A stretch of DNA of 21,029 bases from a virus, in IMG/VR virus record IMGVR_UViG_3300014933_000096, positions 1-21,029 of that record; one strand, given 5' to 3'. Below the pieces are notes generated by a model that saw nothing but the letters and a program-made list of their open reading frames with translations, was not told the origin of the DNA and made no database searches. Position numbers and translations under genes: made by a program. Positions 2 through 8,340 of the stretch are shown in pieces. Positions within the stretch are counted from its first letter, which is position 1. Each line of letters starts with the position of its first letter.

Positions 2-913
2 GCTACCATTCTTACAGGCGGCTTGGACGGTACTGCCCCTACTACCGCTAACATCGCCTCTGCTATTGCTGGCGGCGCGCTTGACTCGATCACTAGCGCA
101 CTACTACTAAACGCTCCTGGCCTAACACTAAAGGCTGACATCGACCTTCTACTAGCATACGCAGCTGGTCGTCAGGATGTATTCGTAGTAATCGACGGCA
201 TCAACGACACTGCTGCTAACCAGATTACTTTGGCAACTAGCTACGCTACGACTAACGCTGCTTACGGTGCTGTTTACTTCCCACAGTTGGTTATTCCAAA
301 CCCACTTCAGGTAACCACAGGCGCAACAGTATATGCTCCCGCAGGAGCCGCGGTTATCGGTCGTATCGTAACTACTGACGTATCGCGCGGTGTATTCAAG
401 TCCCCAGCCGGTCTTGAGGCTCGCCTAAGCGGAGTTGTTTCTGTAGCCAAGCTTACTAACACCGAACTTGACAACCTTAACTCAAGCACCGCTGCTGTAA
501 ACGCTATTCGCTACATCCCAGGTTCGGGGATCGTAGTAATGGGTGCTCGCACACTAAAGCCAGGATATGCCGACCGCTACGTAAGCGTTCGTCGTAGCTT
601 GATTTACTTACGCAAGCAGATGACTGAAGTTACTCAGTTCGCCCTATTTGAGCCAAACGACTTCCGTCTATGGAGCAAAATCGACACCACGCTACGTTCG
701 TTCCTAACGGACTTCTGGCAGCAGGGTGGTCTAGCAGGTAACACACCTAATGATGCTTTCTTTGTCAAGTGTGATGCTGAAAACAACACTGACATGACTA
801 TCGGTCAGGGTCAAGTTATCGTCCAGGTGGGTGTCGCTCTACAGCGTCCTGCTGAATTCATAATTATCCGCATTAGCCAGTACGACGGTGGATCTGTCGT
901 AACAATTTCCTAG
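2..913 (+). CDS. Contractile tail sheath protein, C-terminal part (5' end outside window)
   Basis: The reading frame is open from base 2, so the gene begins upstream; the TTG at 23 is an internal codon, not a credible start. The C-terminal half carries the conserved tail-sheath pattern: a segment reading NAIRYIPGSGIVVMGARTL, then a helix beginning RYVSVRRSLIYLRKQM, then FEPND, a Trp-containing helix ending in WQQGG, and GNTPNDAFFVKCD, closing with a basic-plus-strand end (RPAEFIIIRISQ). This is the handshake domain by which sheath subunits link into the contractile sleeve around the tube. The order sheath then tube (12 nt apart) is the standard one for contractile-tailed phages and related injection machines. 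It ends in TAG, which overlaps the Shine-Dalgarno of the next gene. The family call is firm; the N-terminal domains cannot be seen. Confidence 0.93.
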   Translation, partial: ATILTGGLDGTAPTTANIASAIAGGALDSITSALLLNAPGLTLKADIDLLLAYAAGRQDVFVVIDGINDTAANQITLATSYATTNAAYGAVYFPQLVIPNPLQVTTGATVYAPAGAAVIGRIVTTDVSRGVFKSPAGLEARLSGVVSVAKLTNTELDNLNSSTAAVNAIRYIPGSGIVVMGARTLKPGYADRYVSVRRSLIYLRKQMTEVTQFALFEPNDFRLWSKIDTTLRSFLTDFWQQGGLAGNTPNDAFFVKCDAENNTDMTIGQGQVIVQVGVALQRPAEFIIIRISQYDGGSVVTIS

Positions 914-924
914 GAGGAAAATAA

Positions 925-1518
925 ATGACTAACAAAACCTCAGCGAGTAGCATTCAGCGCTTCTCTAAGATTGCCACTGATCCATTACGCAATTTCCGAT
1001 ACGTTGTCATGTTTTCGGCCGCGGACCCTGGTACACAGTCACCAAGCAATAGCTTCCTATCGTTTGGTGGAGGATTTACCTCGGTGGGTGGATTGAACAT
1101 CAACGTGTCGAGCATCTCGTACCGTGAGGGTGGAATGAACACCACTCTACACCAGGTACCTGGCATGGCATCGTTTGACCCAATCAGCCTTTCGCGCGGT
1201 GTTCTACACGGCAATGACGAGGCTATCAACTGGATGCGTCAGCTATTTACTGCCGCAGCTGGTGAAGGTATCGCAGGATCTGCGGGCAAGAACTTCCGTT
1301 GTAACATCGACGTCTATTTGCTAGACCACCCGATGAATGGTGAGCCTGGAATCCTTAATGAGCTAGTTCAGGCCAAAGCCTACAAGATGCACTGGAAGAT
1401 CTACAACGCTTGGATTACCAGCCTTCGTTACAGTGACCTGAGCGCTACTGACAATGCCCTAATGTACGAGAACATTACTCTTGTACACGAAGGCCTTTCG
1501 GTCGAGTTCATGAACTAA
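925..1518 (+). CDS. Tail tube protein (T4 gp19-like)
   Basis: This 197-aa protein fits the T4 gp19/contractile-injection tube family in length and motifs. It has PLRNFRYVVMF near the N-terminus, a GGFTSVGGL strand, SYREGG followed by a Met/His loop, PGMASFDPISLSRGV, and near the end WKIYNAWITSL and LVHEGLSVEF. Subunits stack as hexameric rings to form the rigid inner tube through which DNA passes. The start is set by a strong AGGAGG at 912-917, six bases upstream of the ATG, overlapping the sheath stop codon; sheath and tube are therefore probably co-translated, as both are needed in large amounts. There is nothing truncated about it. Family assignment is from recognised motifs and the position directly after the sheath. 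Confidence 0.92.
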   Translation: MTNKTSASSIQRFSKIATDPLRNFRYVVMFSAADPGTQSPSNSFLSFGGGFTSVGGLNINVSSISYREGGMNTTLHQVPGMASFDPISLSRGVLHGNDEAINWMRQLFTAAAGEGIAGSAGKNFRCNIDVYLLDHPMNGEPGILNELVQAKAYKMHWKIYNAWITSLRYSDLSATDNALMYENITLVHEGLSVEFMN

Positions 1519-1561: not shown

Positions 1562-2365
1562 ATGACAGACAACATGATGACTAGCGATCCAGCTGCTTTA
1601 GCTAAAGCAGCTGAGGAAGCTAACAAGACACCCGAAGTTCAGGTAACCACAATTGCCCCTTCTAACACAGATGTTACTCTCCCCGGTGGCTATGTCACCG
1701 CGGAGGGTGCTCTGGTTAAGTACGCCGAGGTGCGAGAGCTAAACGGCTCAGATGAAGAGGCGATTGCTAGGGCAGGGTCTACAGGTAAGGTTCTCGCAGC
1801 CATGCTGCAGCGTGGGCTTGTATCTGTAGGTGGCGAGAAGATCGACAAGGATGGACTTGACCGACTACTCAGCGGAGACCGTGACGCAATCCTAATTGGT
1901 ATTCGTCGCGTTACTTTCGGAGACACAGTTGAGTATGCTTTCGCATGTCCTCTCTGTAGAACTGACCTAACTGTAACTGTAGACCTATCTACTGATATTC
2001 CATCAGTAGAGTTGGACGACCCAATCGACGGACGTAGATTCACTTATACGTCTAAGAACAGCGGCGAGATTATTGTATCTCTCCCTACCGGACTAACCCA
2101 GAAAAAGCTTCTGGAAAACGATGACAAAACTCGAGCAGAACTAAACACCATCGTATTGGCTAGCTGTGTGCTATCAATCAATGGAGTTCCTTCTCTAGGA
2201 GCAAGTTCTGTGCTAAAACTTGGAATGCTCGACCGTGAGAACATCATTGACGAGATTATCAAGAGAAACCCTGGGCCACGCCTCGGGGAGGTGAAGACGA
2301 CCTGTGAGGCCTGCGGTGAGGACATTCCTATGCCGCTGTCGTTAGCAGATTTGTTTCGTCTATAA
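1562..2365 (+). CDS. Zinc-ribbon tail assembly chaperone / T4 gp26-gp51-like baseplate protein (zero-frame product)
   Basis: This 267-aa protein lies between tube and tape measure, the classical slot of the tail assembly chaperone. After a disordered N-terminus (about residues 1-45) comes a strand-helix region with YAEVRELNGSDEEAI and a segment LSGDRDAILIGIRRVTFG, a pattern I associate with T4 gp26/gp51-type baseplate proteins. Two CxxC pairs, C129/C132 (CPLC) and C248/C251 (CEAC), would bind one zinc ion and bracket the C-terminal half. The start is supported by AGGAG at 1551-1555. It ends in TAA at 2363, but a chaperone-like extension with no start codon continues in the +1 frame (see next entry), so a longer fused product is likely. 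The role inferred is guiding tape measure and tube assembly or hub assembly; the exact family is less certain than the location. Confidence 0.75.
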   Translation: MTDNMMTSDPAALAKAAEEANKTPEVQVTTIAPSNTDVTLPGGYVTAEGALVKYAEVRELNGSDEEAIARAGSTGKVLAAMLQRGLVSVGGEKIDKDGLDRLLSGDRDAILIGIRRVTFGDTVEYAFACPLCRTDLTVTVDLSTDIPSVELDDPIDGRRFTYTSKNSGEIIVSLPTGLTQKKLLENDDKTRAELNTIVLASCVLSINGVPSLGASSVLKLGMLDRENIIDEIIKRNPGPRLGEVKTTCEACGEDIPMPLSLADLFRL

Positions 2366-2504
2366 AACTGAAGATTACGAAGCACTACTTGACCAATATG
2401 AAGCACTATCTAAGTCATTTCCAGGCTGGACTCTTGCCGACATCAAGGGTCTTTCAGTAAGAGACCGTAGGAATTGGATTTCTAGGGCTATAGCAAGAAG
2501 ATAG
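2346..2504 (+). CDS. Frameshift-dependent C-terminal extension of the tail assembly chaperone
   Basis: In the frame shifted +1 relative to the preceding gene, the sequence is open from 2346 (a TAG lies just before, at 2343) to a TAG at 2502. From 2364 it encodes 46 residues: KTEDYEALLDQYEAL, then FPGWTLADIKGL, then SVRDRRNWISRAIARR. The 'GWTL..IK.L..R.R..W' pattern is typical of the second half of tail assembly chaperones, which is made by programmed frameshifting. The stretch has no ATG, GTG or TTG codon in this frame, so it cannot be an ordinary separate gene. The switch must happen in 2346-2365; candidates are P-site slippage of UUU to UUC at 2354-2357, or slippage at the CUA before the UAA at 2360-2365. 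The fused protein would be about 313 aa with either site. A -2 shift would give the same frame; a sequencing indel is the alternative explanation. Confidence 0.72.
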   Translation, partial: QICFVYKTEDYEALLDQYEALSKSFPGWTLADIKGLSVRDRRNWISRAIARR

Positions 2505-2517
2505 GTATTTAGTAAAT

Positions 2518-4521
2518 ATGGCAGGCAGTGTTTCTAACACGGGTAGTGGCGCATCTAAGCTACGCCTAGTAGCTGACCTTGCCACATCCTATAAAGACCT
2601 AAATAAGGTTCTTCAGGAAACTAAGAAGCTCACTGAAAGCATCGCCACTAATATTAAGAGCGCGTCGAACAAGGGCGGAAGTAACCCTGGCGACAGCATG
2701 AAGTTCGAGCACTCTACTAACGGTTCTGACAGTGCAGCAGGCGGAGGCGGTGGAGGCGGCGGTGCCCCAAGCCCAAATAATTTTGTAGGCGCTAAAGGTG
2801 GCACCATGGGTGCCTCCATGAAGTTTGCTGCCCTTTCTGTTGGTAACGCGATTAATGCAGGTACAAACGCAAGTGCCTACATTGAGAATGATATCTCACG
2901 CCGTCGCTACGGCTTCTATAATGGCGTAGGCGGCGATGCTGGAGCTGCTATGGGCAGCGCGATGTTTAACCGTACAATGCGTAACGGAACTGCTACCGAC
3001 CCGCTAGATGCCGCACGTGCCGCTATGATGGGTACTCAGTCAGGTATCGGTGGCGCAGGCGGTATGGCTAGCGCAGCCACTATGTCTAACCTAGTTCCTG
3101 GAACTGGTATCGCCGGAAGCATGCAGGCGCTAAATGCCCTGAACTCTGCACGTAGTGTGAACATGGCTCGTATGATCGGAATTAACATCCGTGACGACAA
3201 GACTGGTATGATGCGCAGCTTTACGGACATTGCAAACCAGATTTGGGACAACGTAATTATCAAAGGCTATCGTGGTCGTGGTAAGCCTACGGCGGCTGAA
3301 ATTCAATTGTCCCTTCAGCCGGGTAACGCATTGGCTAACCTACTTGATACCTATTTTGGTAACGACCCTATTCTCCGTGAGAACGTGCTTTCGGCAATTA
3401 TGCAGAAGGCCGCGGGAGGAAGCTTTAGCAAAGCCTCGCTGGCCGCTACAGGTGCCAACCCAGCAATTAGCCAAAGCATCGGTGCTAGAAACGCTAAGAA
3501 ATATGCCAGCCAAGACCAATCTACATCTGGTGGTGTGGCGGGTATCATTGGGGGTAACGATACACAAAATGCAATTACTAGCGCGCTTATGACTTTCGGT
3601 CCATTCAAAGACTTTATCACTATGGGTGCCACATTCTTTCAGACCGCGTTGGGCGGACCTGGTGGAGCGTTGGTTGGTTCTCTGCTCGGTAGCATAACTG
3701 GCGGAGGCGGAAGCGTCGGTATTCCGAGCGGGTCGTTCGGAGGTAATGGTTCAGCTATTGGCTCTGGTGGTGGGGAAGGAGTATCCGCTCCTATCGTCGG
3801 ATACTCACACCACATTACAAGCGGCTATGGTGCTCGTAAAAGCCCTCTTACAGGCAAGCCAGGTTTTCACTACGGTCTTGACATCGGTAGGCCTGCGGGT
3901 ACACCTATCTATGCCGCTAAAGACGGTAAGGTAATTAGCGTCGGCGCTAACATGGATAAGAGTCGCGGGTTTGGTCACAACGTGACTATTGCGCACTCTG
4001 ACGGTTACAAGACTACCTACGCACACATGCGCAATACCCCTATGGTATCAACTGGAAATGATGTCGTCGCCGGGCAGCAACTTGGTGAGGTAGGCATGAC
4101 AGGTGCGGCTACTGGAAACCACCTTCACTTCCAAGTTCAAAAAGCCAGCAGTTCCGGTAACAGCGGAACAATTGACCCTAAAGAATGGCTGGGCGGCACT
4201 GCTCCTGATCCTACGGGTGCTGCATCTAGTATGTCCTCTACTTCAGGCTCTGCGGACGCGACCACGCAGGGTAGTGCCACTAATCTTTTTGGAACACAGT
4301 CGGTTGCCCACTCTTTATTCGCAAACCCTTGGACGAGTTCGGCAAATGCTGGGCGAGGTGAAGGTGAAGGCCCGACCGTAATCGGCGCAACGTCATCTGC
4401 TGGGGGAACCGTAGTTCACATTCACGTAAATGGCGGAAACTTTAACGAAGAACGTTTGGCTCAGGAAGTCAAGCGAGTCCTGGACAAGCAAGGCCAAATC
4501 AGATCGGCGGTAAGTAGATAA
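2518..4521 (+). CDS. Tape measure protein with M23 (LytM-type) peptidoglycan peptidase domain
   Basis: This 667-aa protein follows the chaperone, as tape measures do. Residues 1-60 are helical and polar. A Gly-rich linker with eight consecutive glycines follows near residue 80, then a long Ala/Gly/Met-rich region with hydrophobic stretches (about 95-420). Residues about 430-545 form an M23 metallopeptidase: the HxxxD zinc motif is H451/D455 in HYGLDIG, YAHM supplies H503, and HLHF gives H535/H537. The C-terminus (about 630-667) is a strand followed by an amphipathic helix. The protein should set tail length (by the usual rule of about 0.15 nm per residue, near 100 nm at most) and be ejected to cut cell-wall cross-links during DNA entry. 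The ATG has only a weak upstream AGG (2503-2505), fitting coupling to the frameshifted chaperone 13 nt before it. Confidence 0.88.
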   Translation: MAGSVSNTGSGASKLRLVADLATSYKDLNKVLQETKKLTESIATNIKSASNKGGSNPGDSMKFEHSTNGSDSAAGGGGGGGGAPSPNNFVGAKGGTMGASMKFAALSVGNAINAGTNASAYIENDISRRRYGFYNGVGGDAGAAMGSAMFNRTMRNGTATDPLDAARAAMMGTQSGIGGAGGMASAATMSNLVPGTGIAGSMQALNALNSARSVNMARMIGINIRDDKTGMMRSFTDIANQIWDNVIIKGYRGRGKPTAAEIQLSLQPGNALANLLDTYFGNDPILRENVLSAIMQKAAGGSFSKASLAATGANPAISQSIGARNAKKYASQDQSTSGGVAGIIGGNDTQNAITSALMTFGPFKDFITMGATFFQTALGGPGGALVGSLLGSITGGGGSVGIPSGSFGGNGSAIGSGGGEGVSAPIVGYSHHITSGYGARKSPLTGKPGFHYGLDIGRPAGTPIYAAKDGKVISVGANMDKSRGFGHNVTIAHSDGYKTTYAHMRNTPMVSTGNDVVAGQQLGEVGMTGAATGNHLHFQVQKASSSGNSGTIDPKEWLGGTAPDPTGAASSMSSTSGSADATTQGSATNLFGTQSVAHSLFANPWTSSANAGRGEGEGPTVIGATSSAGGTVVHIHVNGGNFNEERLAQEVKRVLDKQGQIRSAVSR

Positions 4522-6062
4522 TGTCTAAACCAATAGATAGCGGCTCTAGTGTACGCTCCGCTAATTCAACCGCGGCCACTTACTTTACGTACTACAAAAA
4601 CTACTCGGACAAGTTTGCGCCCGCTCAGGATGTCACATTAGCAACGGGCTTAACTAACGCAGCTGCCCAAGGAAATTTACGCGGCTATACCGTGCCTTTG
4701 ACTTCCTCTAGCCGAATTTCTAAGGGTGTTCCGGTTGTAACGGGTAAGTACTCGGACACTGCGAACGGCGTGACCGACTACATCATCTCGGACGTTGTTC
4801 CTAAAGCATCTGGTGACTCAGGTTTCTATAAAGACCAGGTTAGTGGTCAAACAATTAACACTACCTACAAGTACATCAATACGCCTATTACGATTCCTGG
4901 AACTGATGGTAAGCCTATTTACTACAAAGGCTATTATGTTCCTACGGTCCTTCCTAATTCCCCTGGCAGTATAAGCACTGATGCAGGATCTACGGACGGT
5001 ACTCAAATAACTGACAGTACTGAGAACTATCAGTGGAACTTGCCTCCGCACAAATGGAGTATGCCCTTCGTCTCATCTAAGAATGGCATGGCTATTGAAC
5101 GCGCGACTCGTTCCGGATCCTCTGACCGATACCGTCGCGGCCGTATTTGGTCTGCCTACGCAGCTAACACATATACGCTAACTACTGATGCTAAGGGAAA
5201 CCAGGTTCAGAACTGGAGCAAGTCTAACAAGAGCAAACTTAACTATGGATTCCAATTTATGTGGAATCCTGAAGCACTGAGCACAGCCGTAGCTGTTCAG
5301 ATGGACGCTACCCCTAACGTAAACGACCAGTGGCTTGGTGCTGTAGGATTATTTCCTGCCACCGAAACGTTTAGCATTAACATCCGTTTAGACAGGACAA
5401 ACGACTTTGCTCGCGCTGGTGCCCGCTTTGGTCGTCCGACAAAGTTGGCTAAGGAAGACTCTGGAAGCAATGACTTTGTGAAAAACACGTCTTTAAGTGA
5501 CCTGCTTCCGGAGTACCAAGTTAAAGGCGGCTTCTCGCAAAAGGGAGTTAAGCTAGACGACCTCAAAGACTTATTTAATCGAGGAACTCTTGCCGATCTT
5601 GAGTATCTTTTCCGCGCAGTTAACGGAAAAGGTCCTACTGAGGATACCCCTTGGGTAAACCCTCGTGGACAAGAGACCGCCAACATCGGATGGCTACAGC
5701 CGAACCTTGTACACATTGACGTCGGTCCTCTATCTTACATCGGCTGGATTACCAATATCGGTATTACGCACACCTCGTTTACGCAGGACATGATTCCTAT
5801 TCGTACCGATGTTTCGATCTCATTTAATACTCTTGCTACTGCGGGTATTGGTAGCGCAGCGGCTGACGCCTCTGCTGCCTCTGCTACTACCACCAGCACT
5901 ACCACGCAGATTCCTACTCTAAATAATCAGCCTGCGAAACCCGCTAACTATTCCGCGTTACTTGGTGACTATTCTGTGAGTAACCAGAAGGCGGCAACTA
6001 CTGCTACAACCTATTTGTCTAAGCACAAGCCTAGTAGCGGTGCTGGAAAGGTACTGCCGTGA
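4521..6062 (+). CDS. Tail tube-initiator-like baseplate structural protein
   Basis: This 513-aa protein overlaps the tape measure stop by one base (TAATG). Residues about 1-190 are Ser/Thr/Tyr-rich and not recognised. The middle and C-terminal core (about 235-445) has a tube-like layout: LNYGFQFMWNPEAL, a strand FPATETFSINIRLDR, a helix DLEYLFRAVNG, then WLQPNLVHIDVGPLSYIGWI and a strand pair ending in RTDVSISF. This resembles contractile-injection-system tube/initiator proteins, in which an 'NP' strand, an EYL helix and a final 'G.I..++..T.F' sheet recur. It would sit where the tube meets the baseplate (role like T4 gp48/gp54). The tail end (about 450-513) is low-complexity Ala/Thr/Ser. The fold call is by pattern only; the position before the LysM-like gene supports it. 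Confidence 0.6.
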   Translation: MSKPIDSGSSVRSANSTAATYFTYYKNYSDKFAPAQDVTLATGLTNAAAQGNLRGYTVPLTSSSRISKGVPVVTGKYSDTANGVTDYIISDVVPKASGDSGFYKDQVSGQTINTTYKYINTPITIPGTDGKPIYYKGYYVPTVLPNSPGSISTDAGSTDGTQITDSTENYQWNLPPHKWSMPFVSSKNGMAIERATRSGSSDRYRRGRIWSAYAANTYTLTTDAKGNQVQNWSKSNKSKLNYGFQFMWNPEALSTAVAVQMDATPNVNDQWLGAVGLFPATETFSINIRLDRTNDFARAGARFGRPTKLAKEDSGSNDFVKNTSLSDLLPEYQVKGGFSQKGVKLDDLKDLFNRGTLADLEYLFRAVNGKGPTEDTPWVNPRGQETANIGWLQPNLVHIDVGPLSYIGWITNIGITHTSFTQDMIPIRTDVSISFNTLATAGIGSAAADASAASATTTSTTTQIPTLNNQPAKPANYSALLGDYSVSNQKAATTATTYLSKHKPSSGAGKVLP

Positions 6063-6340: not shown

Positions 6341-7649
6341 TCACATTGAAGTAGAGATGCCAAATAGCCAATGGCAATTCAATCGTGTCTACAAAGCTGT
6401 AATCAGACAGCAAAACTACGAGCATGACTACTTATCTATTACATTCCGAGACTGGCACGGTAACCCGTCTAAAGCACGCCCGGGATCGCTAATCCGCGTA
6501 AAACTTGACGGCAAAGAATTCTGTGGATACATTCACGACATCAAGTCACATCAGGAGAATGGCAAAGACATTACTGAACTTGGCGTTATCGGTGCATCTT
6601 ACGTAATGCGTCAAAGCAGCCAGAAAGTTTACTACAACGTAACTGCAGACCAAGTTGTTGCAGACATTGCTCGCAGATATAACTTTGCCTATAAAGCAAT
6701 TGCGCACCCACGTGTCTACCCGCAGATCTCTCAGGCGGGGCTAACTGACTGGGAGTTTATGGTCAAGCTGGCTAAACAGTCTGGTTATTTCCTACGAGCT
6801 GAGAATGCTGCGCTATACTTTACACCATTCCAGCAGGACTTCAAAGACCGTATCTATGAGGCGCTTTCGTTTGTGAAAACAGACCTAGGTAAGAAGTATG
6901 AAAAAGCCCTGTACTCTTTCCGCCCTATCGTCGGTGAAACATTAGCACACCACGACGCAGATAAGTCCGCTACTTCCATCGCTGGAGTAGACCCTACTAC
7001 TGGCGCGTACTTTAAGTACACTACACCACAGCGTGCCGTACCGTCTCGTAAAGACGCTCACCCTGAGATGTTTGATAAGCACGCTACCTCGGTAGTTGTA
7101 AACGACTTTAAGACCGCTACCGCAGAAGCAAACTCGGCAGACCTTCGAAGCACCTACGCTTATATGGCTGAAGCTGAGATTCTAGGAACCGTAGCGCTAC
7201 ACCCTGGTATGCCTGTTCACTTTACTAACGTCGGCAAGGACTATTCTGGCTATTGGACGGTGCTTAGTGTTGAGCACCACGTCATAGAAGCATCTAGCAA
7301 CCGACAGACGTACACTACACGCTTGACCGTGGGAACGGACTCTCTGGGCGAGATTAACGACCCTGCTGTGCCTACAATCCCTGCGAATGTCGGCATTCGC
7401 CACATCACTCCTAACACTAGAAACACTCGTAAAAAAGTATCCACCGAAGCGTACTGGTCTGGACTTAATGTTAGACAGCCAAGCAAATTCTCTATTGTAA
7501 ACCGCACTAACCGCGCAGATCCTGAATCTAAATTATTATTAAAAAGCCGATGGATTTCCAGGGACGGTAATTTAAAGGAACGTTCATTGCCCCCGCAAAC
7601 ACCTGCCTTCATTCTAGAAAAGATACGAGCCTATAATGCACACTCATAA
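6333..7649 (+). CDS. Baseplate hub protein (gpD / T4 gp27-like)
   Basis: This 438-aa protein starts 8 nt inside the preceding gene. Its N-terminal half matches hub proteins of the late-control gpD family: a first beta domain with LSITFRDW, a second with GSLIRVKLDG and FCGYIHDIK, then DQVVADIARRYNF and the hallmark TDWEFMVKLAKQSGYFLRAENAALYF (two overlapping pieces of one motif, about residues 145-165 and on). The C-terminal part contains a strand PGMPVHFTNVG and a typical hub ending (VEHHVIEASSNRQTYTTRLTVG), then a roughly 80-residue extension that is not recognised. Three copies would form the ring joining the tube to the spike encoded next; the genes overlap by 14 nt. Length and order agree with P2, Mu and SPO1-like tails. 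Confidence 0.87.
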   Translation: MFNHIEVEMPNSQWQFNRVYKAVIRQQNYEHDYLSITFRDWHGNPSKARPGSLIRVKLDGKEFCGYIHDIKSHQENGKDITELGVIGASYVMRQSSQKVYYNVTADQVVADIARRYNFAYKAIAHPRVYPQISQAGLTDWEFMVKLAKQSGYFLRAENAALYFTPFQQDFKDRIYEALSFVKTDLGKKYEKALYSFRPIVGETLAHHDADKSATSIAGVDPTTGAYFKYTTPQRAVPSRKDAHPEMFDKHATSVVVNDFKTATAEANSADLRSTYAYMAEAEILGTVALHPGMPVHFTNVGKDYSGYWTVLSVEHHVIEASSNRQTYTTRLTVGTDSLGEINDPAVPTIPANVGIRHITPNTRNTRKKVSTEAYWSGLNVRQPSKFSIVNRTNRADPESKLLLKSRWISRDGNLKERSLPPQTPAFILEKIRAYNAHS

Positions 7650-8340
7650 TTACCCTGGGCTATATAGAGGAATTGTGGTAGATAGCGCTGACCCTCTGAA
7701 CGCCGGCCGAATCCGTATGAAGGTGCCTCAGATCCTTGGAGAAGAAGTTACCACCTGGGCTTGGCCTGTTATGGGCGGGGTCTCTCAGTATAAACCTGTG
7801 TACGGCGAATGGCGGGCTGACTACACTCAAAGCATCGTTAGCAATACTGTTGCCTACCCTGTAACCTTTGGAACTAACGATGGATCTAACGGAATCACTT
7901 TGCAGAATGGAAGTCAGCTTTTATTCCAGTACGCGGGTGTGTACAACATTCAGATCTCGATGCAATTCCAAAACACAAGTACGAGTACTCAAGACGCGTA
8001 CGTGTGGATGCGCACTAATGGCGCAGATGTTGCTGGTAGTACAGGTTTGGTTTCGATCCCATCTAGTCACGGTGGCATTCCTGGCCACATAGTTTCTTCT
8101 TGGAACTACGTGTCTAGTTTTAATGCTGGAGACTACTTCGAGATAGTGTGGTCTGCTTCCAATACTGGGGTAACTATGCAGTACTATGACGTGTTGTCTA
8201 ACCCTACAACTCCTACAACCCCAAGTGCGGTCGTTACCATATCCGCAGTTGGCAAAGTAGCCCCTAAGACCTCTGATGCTGTATGGGCAGCGTTTGAGGG
8301 CGGGGACCCTAACTTCCCACTATGGATAGGAACATTTTAA
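7636..8340 (+). CDS. Baseplate central spike protein with OB-fold split by a C1q/TNF-like insertion (gpV/gp5-like)
   Basis: This 234-aa protein overlaps the hub gene by 14 nt. Residues 8-46 are the first half of the spike OB-fold: YRGIVVDSADPLNAGRIRMKVP, continued by a WAWPVM strand. Residues 209-234 are its second half, with VWAAFEGGDPNFPLWIG, which in ordinary gp5/gpV proteins follows the first half after a short loop. Between them lie about 145 residues (about 61-205) with a C1q/TNF-like jelly-roll pattern: QFQNTSTSTQDAYVWMRTNG, then FNAGDYFEIVWSAS and SAVVTISAVG. There is no lysozyme domain and no beta-helical needle, and the protein stops directly after the OB-fold. It should still trimerise on the hub. 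The insertion could bind a surface ligand or brace the baseplate. The spike call is firm; the insert's function is inferred. Confidence 0.82.
   Translation: MHTHNYPGLYRGIVVDSADPLNAGRIRMKVPQILGEEVTTWAWPVMGGVSQYKPVYGEWRADYTQSIVSNTVAYPVTFGTNDGSNGITLQNGSQLLFQYAGVYNIQISMQFQNTSTSTQDAYVWMRTNGADVAGSTGLVSIPSSHGGIPGHIVSSWNYVSSFNAGDYFEIVWSASNTGVTMQYYDVLSNPTTPTTPSAVVTISAVGKVAPKTSDAVWAAFEGGDPNFPLWIGTF
7816..8250 (+). other. C1q/TNF-like beta-sandwich domain inserted in the spike OB-fold
   Basis: The approximate borders are judged from where the two OB-fold halves stop resembling gp5/gpV. The inserted segment alternates beta strands with polar loops. It has the pattern common in phage fibre C1q-like domains: a strand ending FQYAGVYNIQISMQFQN, an aromatic strand YVWMRTNGADV, then AGDYFEIVWSAS, and a closing SAVVTISAV. 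Such domains usually form trimers, which agrees with the trimeric spike. Confidence 0.65.

Follow-up and report, generated by a model that had tools for sequence, protein, structure and literature searches.

A +1 ribosomal slip at UUU-C very probably gives a T4-related phage tail chaperone a short and a long form

Gene order and reading frames in the tail cluster

The window analyzed here, the whole of a 21,029-base virus record (IMGVR_UViG_3300014933_000096), is a single metagenomic contig. It carries a contractile-tail gene cluster, in which the sheath and tube genes are followed by an open reading frame (ORF) at 1562-2365, a tape-measure-like ORF, and then hub and baseplate genes (Table 1). 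The gp19-type tube gene lies 5′ of the ORF and the M23 domain-containing, tape-measure-like ORF directly 3′ of it. This is the gene order expected of a tail-assembly chaperone, the identity that an earlier note, made from the letters of this DNA alone, had inferred from the position of the gene.

The 3′ end of the ORF reads GAT TTG TTT CGT CTA TAA. The +1 frame is open over 2346-2504, overlaps the 0-frame ORF by 20 nt and continues for 46 codons beyond the 0-frame stop. It contains no ATG, GTG or TTG, and the first ATC occurs only after most of the extension has passed. Since 2.5% of dinucleotide shuffles contained an open run as long, the length of this frame is only mildly unusual and is weak evidence by itself.

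Table 1 Features of the chaperone locus in the window
Feature	Position	Strand	Basis
Sheath	23-913		Contractile-tail gene cluster
Tail tube protein, T4 gp19 family	925-1518	+	PF06841, 7.4e-23
Short chaperone form, 0-frame ORF, 267 aa, two CxxC pairs	1562-2365	+	PF12322 (T4 gp26/gp51 family), phrog_150, AF2
Putative shift core, TTG TTT CGT	2351-2359	+	Intersection of family overlaps; base conservation
Putative +1 slip site UUU_C, proposed tRNA-Phe move from UUU to UUC	2354-2357	+	TTT in 85/89, CTT in 4/89; next base C in 97%
0-frame stop TAA, end of short form	2363-2365	+	ORF call
+1-frame extension, 48 aa (VYKTEDYE...IARR), three helices	2358-2501	+	Homology to T4 gp51 C-terminus and cyanophage 'gp51'
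+1-frame stop TAG; fused product 313 aa	2502-2504	+	Open frame
Probable tape-measure protein with M23 peptidase domain	2518-4521	+	PF01551, 2.7e-26; PHROG tape-measure matches; position

Two further genes of the window can be recorded here. The product of 7636-8340 is a gp5/gpV-like protein with Phage_base_V matches in two stretches, in which about 150 residues separate the N-terminal OB part from the C-terminal piece. The 513-aa product of 4521-6062 resembles a contractile injection system tube protein only weakly (PF19266, with a score below the cut-off).

Conservation of the extension and of the slip codon

We scanned IMG/VR, the genomes of GTDB and phage records and obtained 141 full-length loci, of which 89 were distinct, including that of the window. 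The 88 distinct relatives, 30-69% identical, came from IMG/VR contigs, isolated Streptomyces phages and actinobacterial prophages. Among them are the complete genomes of the Streptomyces phages BRock, GiJojo, LuckySocke and pSt2308, as well as chromosomal copies from assemblies of Actinomadura, Nonomuraea, Streptomyces and Saccharothrix. The Actinomadura and Nonomuraea copies have genes for terminase, portal and capsid next to them, indicating that these copies are prophages; on the same ground we rejected a contractile injection system as their origin. A match to MD18 was discarded: it is short, lies among unrelated genes and is due to chance. In Nonomuraea typhae (L261-L262), a prophage of the +1 type lies directly downstream of recA-recX. 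One relative (L245) is on a 4.5-kb contig of a metagenome-assembled genome labelled Bacillota, a host assignment that is doubtful.

A homologous extension is in the +1 frame in all 88 relatives, confirming the start-less +1 extension with its 46 codons past the stop that the earlier note had described. Relatives in which the two frames are fused without a shift, or in which the extension is decayed, would have counted against that note, and there were none (0/88 fused). Among 147 close pairs, which are not independent, the differences in the extension at codon positions 1/2/3 of the +1 frame numbered 530/295/1523, and the substitutions comprised 1173 synonymous versus 409 non-synonymous changes. 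This codon-position bias and synonymous excess indicate that the extension is translated and under purifying selection in the +1 frame. It is its conservation in relatives, and not its length, that makes the extension real.

In each member, the shift can lie only where the +1 frame is open and before the 0-frame stop; across the family, the intersection of these limits is an 11-nt core, from -5 to +6 of the TTT codon. The P-site slip codon was UUU in 85 and CUU in 4 of the 89 members and never UUC, and the base 3′ of it was C in 97%. The following A-site codon was CGC in 47 members, CGT in 20, CGA in 8, CAA and CTC in 3 each, CAG, TTA and CTA in 2 each, and CTT and TGA in 1 each. UUU_CGN was thus found in 75/89; the window belongs to this type, having UUU_CGU with the +1 frame open. 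The 0-frame stop is 1, 3, 4 or 8 codons from the slip codon across the family, and only one member (L036, UUU_UGA) has a stop codon directly in the A site. The divergent members L058, L062, L064 and L067 have CUU_UUA or CUU_CUA in place of UUU_CGN; in the GC-rich L062 and L064, the site is CTT_CTA, and the gene has no other CTA codon.

The wobble T of the slip codon is invariant across the family. Where the slip codon encodes Phe it is TTT in 85/85 cases, whereas elsewhere in the same genes 225 TTT and 180 TTC codons were counted. The GC-rich members (59-68% GC) use almost only TTC elsewhere (TTT in 0/9, 0/8, 0/11, 1/11 and 2/9) and yet have TTT at the slip site. Such constraint on a synonymous base, at exactly the slip codon, is the signature of P-site slippage. 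The locus also has what is expected of a frameshifted chaperone gene: the second ORF overlaps the first and has no start of its own, and a conserved slip site lies close to the 3′ end of the first.

We found no stimulatory element, and the frameshift efficiency therefore cannot be guessed. An upstream Shine-Dalgarno-like stimulator is depleted rather than enriched (3/89 members versus 18% of control positions), in agreement with the absence of an RF2-like one in the earlier note. With this depletion, and a stop in the A site of L036 alone, the locus is not of the RF2 type of +1 frameshifting. Nor is it of the -1 type with an X_XXY_YYZ heptamer, the extension being in the +1 frame in the window and all 88 relatives. 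The RNA downstream showed no sign of a structural stimulator against mononucleotide shuffles: the family mean z was 0.0, and that of the window was +1.9, less structured than the shuffles. A pause at a rare A-site codon was rejected as the cause of the shift: no Arg codons are commoner in the window than CGU and CGC.

Protein family, proposed shift and alternatives

The product of 1562-2365 matched PF12322 (T4_baseplate) with E = 3.3e-9 and 37.2 bits, above the cut-off of 24.5 and sufficient for membership, and phrog_150 at 1.5e-8. PF12322 also matched T4 gp26 (8.8e-64) and gp51 (3.9e-52), whereas phrog_150 covered gp26 to position 235 and gp51 to position 280 of 282. Since PF12322 is common to both and the phrog_150 coverage reaches further in gp51, gp51 is a gp26-like protein with an additional C-terminal domain. 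The end of gp26 is the point at which the short form ends, and gp51 carries the extension; on homology, the predicted short product is gp26-like and the predicted +1 product gp51-like.

In hhalign, the fused profile matched gp51 with a probability of 84% (local) or 92% (global), colinear across the junction, as required for membership, and matched cyanophage fused profiles with 96-97%. For the extension alone, the actinophage profile matched the cyanophage profile with E = 2.6e-5 and a probability of 75%, against at most 1.2% in column-shuffled controls, and the cyanophage profile matched gp51 at 3e-10. The direct match of the actinophage extension to gp51 is weak (5%), so the extension-only tie between them relies on the cyanophage link. 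AlphaFold, applied to the two parts separately, predicted a folded short form (pLDDT 88.5) and an extension of three helices (pLDDT 88.0). Foldseek matches included phage hub-assembly proteins such as gp26 of Aeromonas phage 25. No PDB sequence relatives were found for the family profile or gp51, and a PDB structure search gave no significant match; the highest probability among the matches listed was for 2ob9, the tail assembly chaperone of HK97 (0.47, TMt 0.59, E = 3.7), a resemblance between predicted and known folds that is a lead, not proof.

In phages lambda and P2, the tail-assembly chaperones gpG/gpGT and E/E′ are made by a -1 programmed frameshift. We consider a programmed +1 frameshift at UUU_CGU (2354-2359), giving a 267-aa short and a 313-aa long form, a very likely and the best explanation of the locus, although frameshifting itself was not measured. 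The tRNA-Phe (anticodon GAA) on UUU would re-pair with the overlapping UUC while the A site awaits CGU, a step inferred from known tRNA behavior. The next codon would then be GUC, the junction would read ...ADLF-VYKTEDYE..., and a fraction of ribosomes would pass the 0-frame stop to make the long form with its three-helix C-terminal domain. By analogy with lambda, and from homology and gene position, the short form may coat the tape-measure protein as gpG does, and the rare long form may recruit the tube subunit or start the tube, as gpGT does. Comparison of sequences has established two overlapping frames, an invariant slip codon, a selected extension, homology to T4 gp26/gp51 and the gene order. 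The comparative data thus support the +1 programmed frameshift in a tail-assembly chaperone proposed in the earlier note, while shifting at UUU_CGU and the status of the long form as the minority product are inferred, with no protein, ribosome-profiling or reporter evidence.

Other accounts of the two frames were weighed against this evidence. A single metagenomic contig could contain a sequencing or assembly indel that splits one real ORF, or a decayed gene, and open frames of this length do arise in 2.5% of shuffles; the same +1 arrangement in 88 distinct relatives from many assemblies and complete isolate genomes refutes this, and with the purifying selection on the extension it leaves the idea virtually no credence. 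It is highly unlikely that ribosomes re-initiate, or initiate in a coupled manner, past the 0-frame stop and so make the extension as a separate small protein. A separate short gene is indeed annotated in the more distant cyanophages, Schizotequatrovirus and Ackermannviridae, some with a TAATG junction, but the frame of the window lacks the usual start codons, in 19/88 members no start codon precedes the conserved RER motif, and re-initiation leaves the selection on the UUU wobble base unexplained. The earlier note had allowed that relatives with an own start codon would speak against a shift; 40/88 have none that could give the whole extension. A -2 shift, or a +1 shift at CUA_UAA (2360-2365), would reach the same frame, and -2 shifting is known in phages (PMC5009743). 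The earlier note had left open both +1 and -2 and both UUU-C and CUA-UAA. Only +1 at TTTC has held up: -2 is disfavored because it allows no re-pairing at UUU or CUA, and the codon before the stop varies widely, with the stop 1-8 codons from UUU and only TTT_C invariant. We regard both of these variants as very unlikely.

The role of the protein is less secure than the shift. A published list (PMC3004832) counts both gp26 and gp51 of T4 among the chaperones of hub assembly and gives gp51 as a protein that assembly requires but the finished particle lacks; according to the same source, genetics has assigned gp26 to the hub. It is conceivable that the frameshift is real and that the protein, as a chaperone or component of the baseplate hub found only in T4-type tails, does not work like lambda G/GT. 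We think this rather unlikely but worth keeping in mind; the chaperone gene adjoins the tape-measure gene, a C-terminal domain sets the long form apart from the short one, and in PDB the one fold match of note, not significant, is the HK97 chaperone. A G/GT-type tape-measure chaperone for the T4 lineage remains the best reading, for which data on the ratio of the forms, on tape-measure or tube binding and on absence from the virion are lacking.

A programmed frameshift in a tail chaperone is of an already known kind. Like G/GT and E/E′, the gene lies between those for the tube and the tape measure and encodes a short form with a frameshifted C-terminal extension; it differs in using +1 at UUU_CGN instead of a -1 heptamer and in the zinc-ribbon-like CxxC pairs of the window protein, and no sequence relation to either system was found. 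For influenza A PA-X and plant amalgaviruses, UUU_CGN has been reported as the motif of +1 shifting (PMC5052127), and the same tRNA-Phe re-pairing from UUU to UUC has been proposed for them, but on eukaryotic ribosomes and in unrelated genes; here, the ribosomes are bacterial and the CGY codons common. The rhizobial ICE protein FseA (msi172/msi171) also involves a +1 shift at UUU on bacterial ribosomes, but is not a phage protein, and a conserved upstream Trp-Gly was suggested as its stimulator (PMC5009743). As far as checked, what is new is the protein family, the UUU_CGN site in phages of bacteria and the link to genes 26 and 51 of T4; our literature search, which left out most subscription papers, found no description of frameshifting in the gp26/gp51 family. 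The T4 link, the UUU_CGN match and the cyanophage -1 version described below also go beyond the earlier note. The family provides dozens of natural bacterial UUU_CGN +1 sites that have common A-site codons and no recognizable stimulators, and in which one could test directly why CGN favors P-site slippage.

The -1 version in T4-related phages and a proposed ancestral frameshift

In cyanophages and Schizotequatrovirus, gp26 and a short 'gp51' ORF are annotated as separate genes. The protein is homologous to that of the window with the extension at the same position, and differs in that the putative shift is -1 at U_UUU_UUC. This heptamer was found just before the stop of the gp26-like gene in 77/77 distinct cyanophage-type loci, and the gp51-like tail is in the -1 frame at the same protein position in 75 of them; one of the two exceptions is truncated at the end of its contig. 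The other, in Synechococcus phage S-SCSM1 (L069:2663-2871), has the only +1 extension of the 77, after UUU_UUC; this may reflect a true switch of direction, or a single base that differs or is in error. At the cyanophage loci L085-L164 and at L070:2660-2869, what is annotated as a gene in its own right, 'gp51 baseplate hub assembly catalyst', continues the gp26 gene in the -1 frame and appears to be mis-annotated as independent. Many phage annotations, with a separate 'gp51' or a missing extension, need joining.

T4 has no frameshift here and instead two separate paralogous genes of the same Pfam family. In a midpoint-rooted tree of the short form, the +1 phages formed one clade (100/100), and gp26 and gp51, each monophyletic, grouped together with moderate support (93/74), nested among the -1 phages. 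This topology fits a frameshift that was ancestral and that gave way to gene duplication in Tevenvirinae. Bacillus phage 0305phi8-36 sets a precedent for such a change: there, two paralogous genes, gp143/gp144, stand in for the G/GT frameshift, although these are other proteins, reported by their authors as alpha-helical and G-like (PMC2147016). On balance we lean toward a frameshifted short/long chaperone as the ancestral state, with -1 in cyanophages and others, +1 in actinophages and a split into genes 26 and 51 in Tevenvirinae. In a review (PMC5009743), T4 is named as the exception ('except T4') to the conservation of the G/GT frameshift among long-tailed phages; if the ancestral reading is true, T4 is no exception to the rule and gp51 is a GT-type chaperone.

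Most sampled lineages of the gp26/gp51 family outside Tevenvirinae have the frameshift arrangement, which suggests a function for gp51, reportedly essential but of unknown function in a 2010 description, and a reason for the gp26/gp51 pair. The U-rich -1 heptamer is also present in Schizotequatrovirus, Menderavirus Moby, a Nitratidesulfovibrio phage, Melnitz-1, MED4-213 and Vibrio phage Bakedbeans, and other junctions occur in Ackermannviridae and Cygsa01. Ackermannviridae and some Vibrio and Pseudomonas phages (L255-L257, L073) encode the same two-part protein with junctions that lack a canonical heptamer (ATT TTC, CTT TTC or GTT TTT), often with TAATG at the stop.
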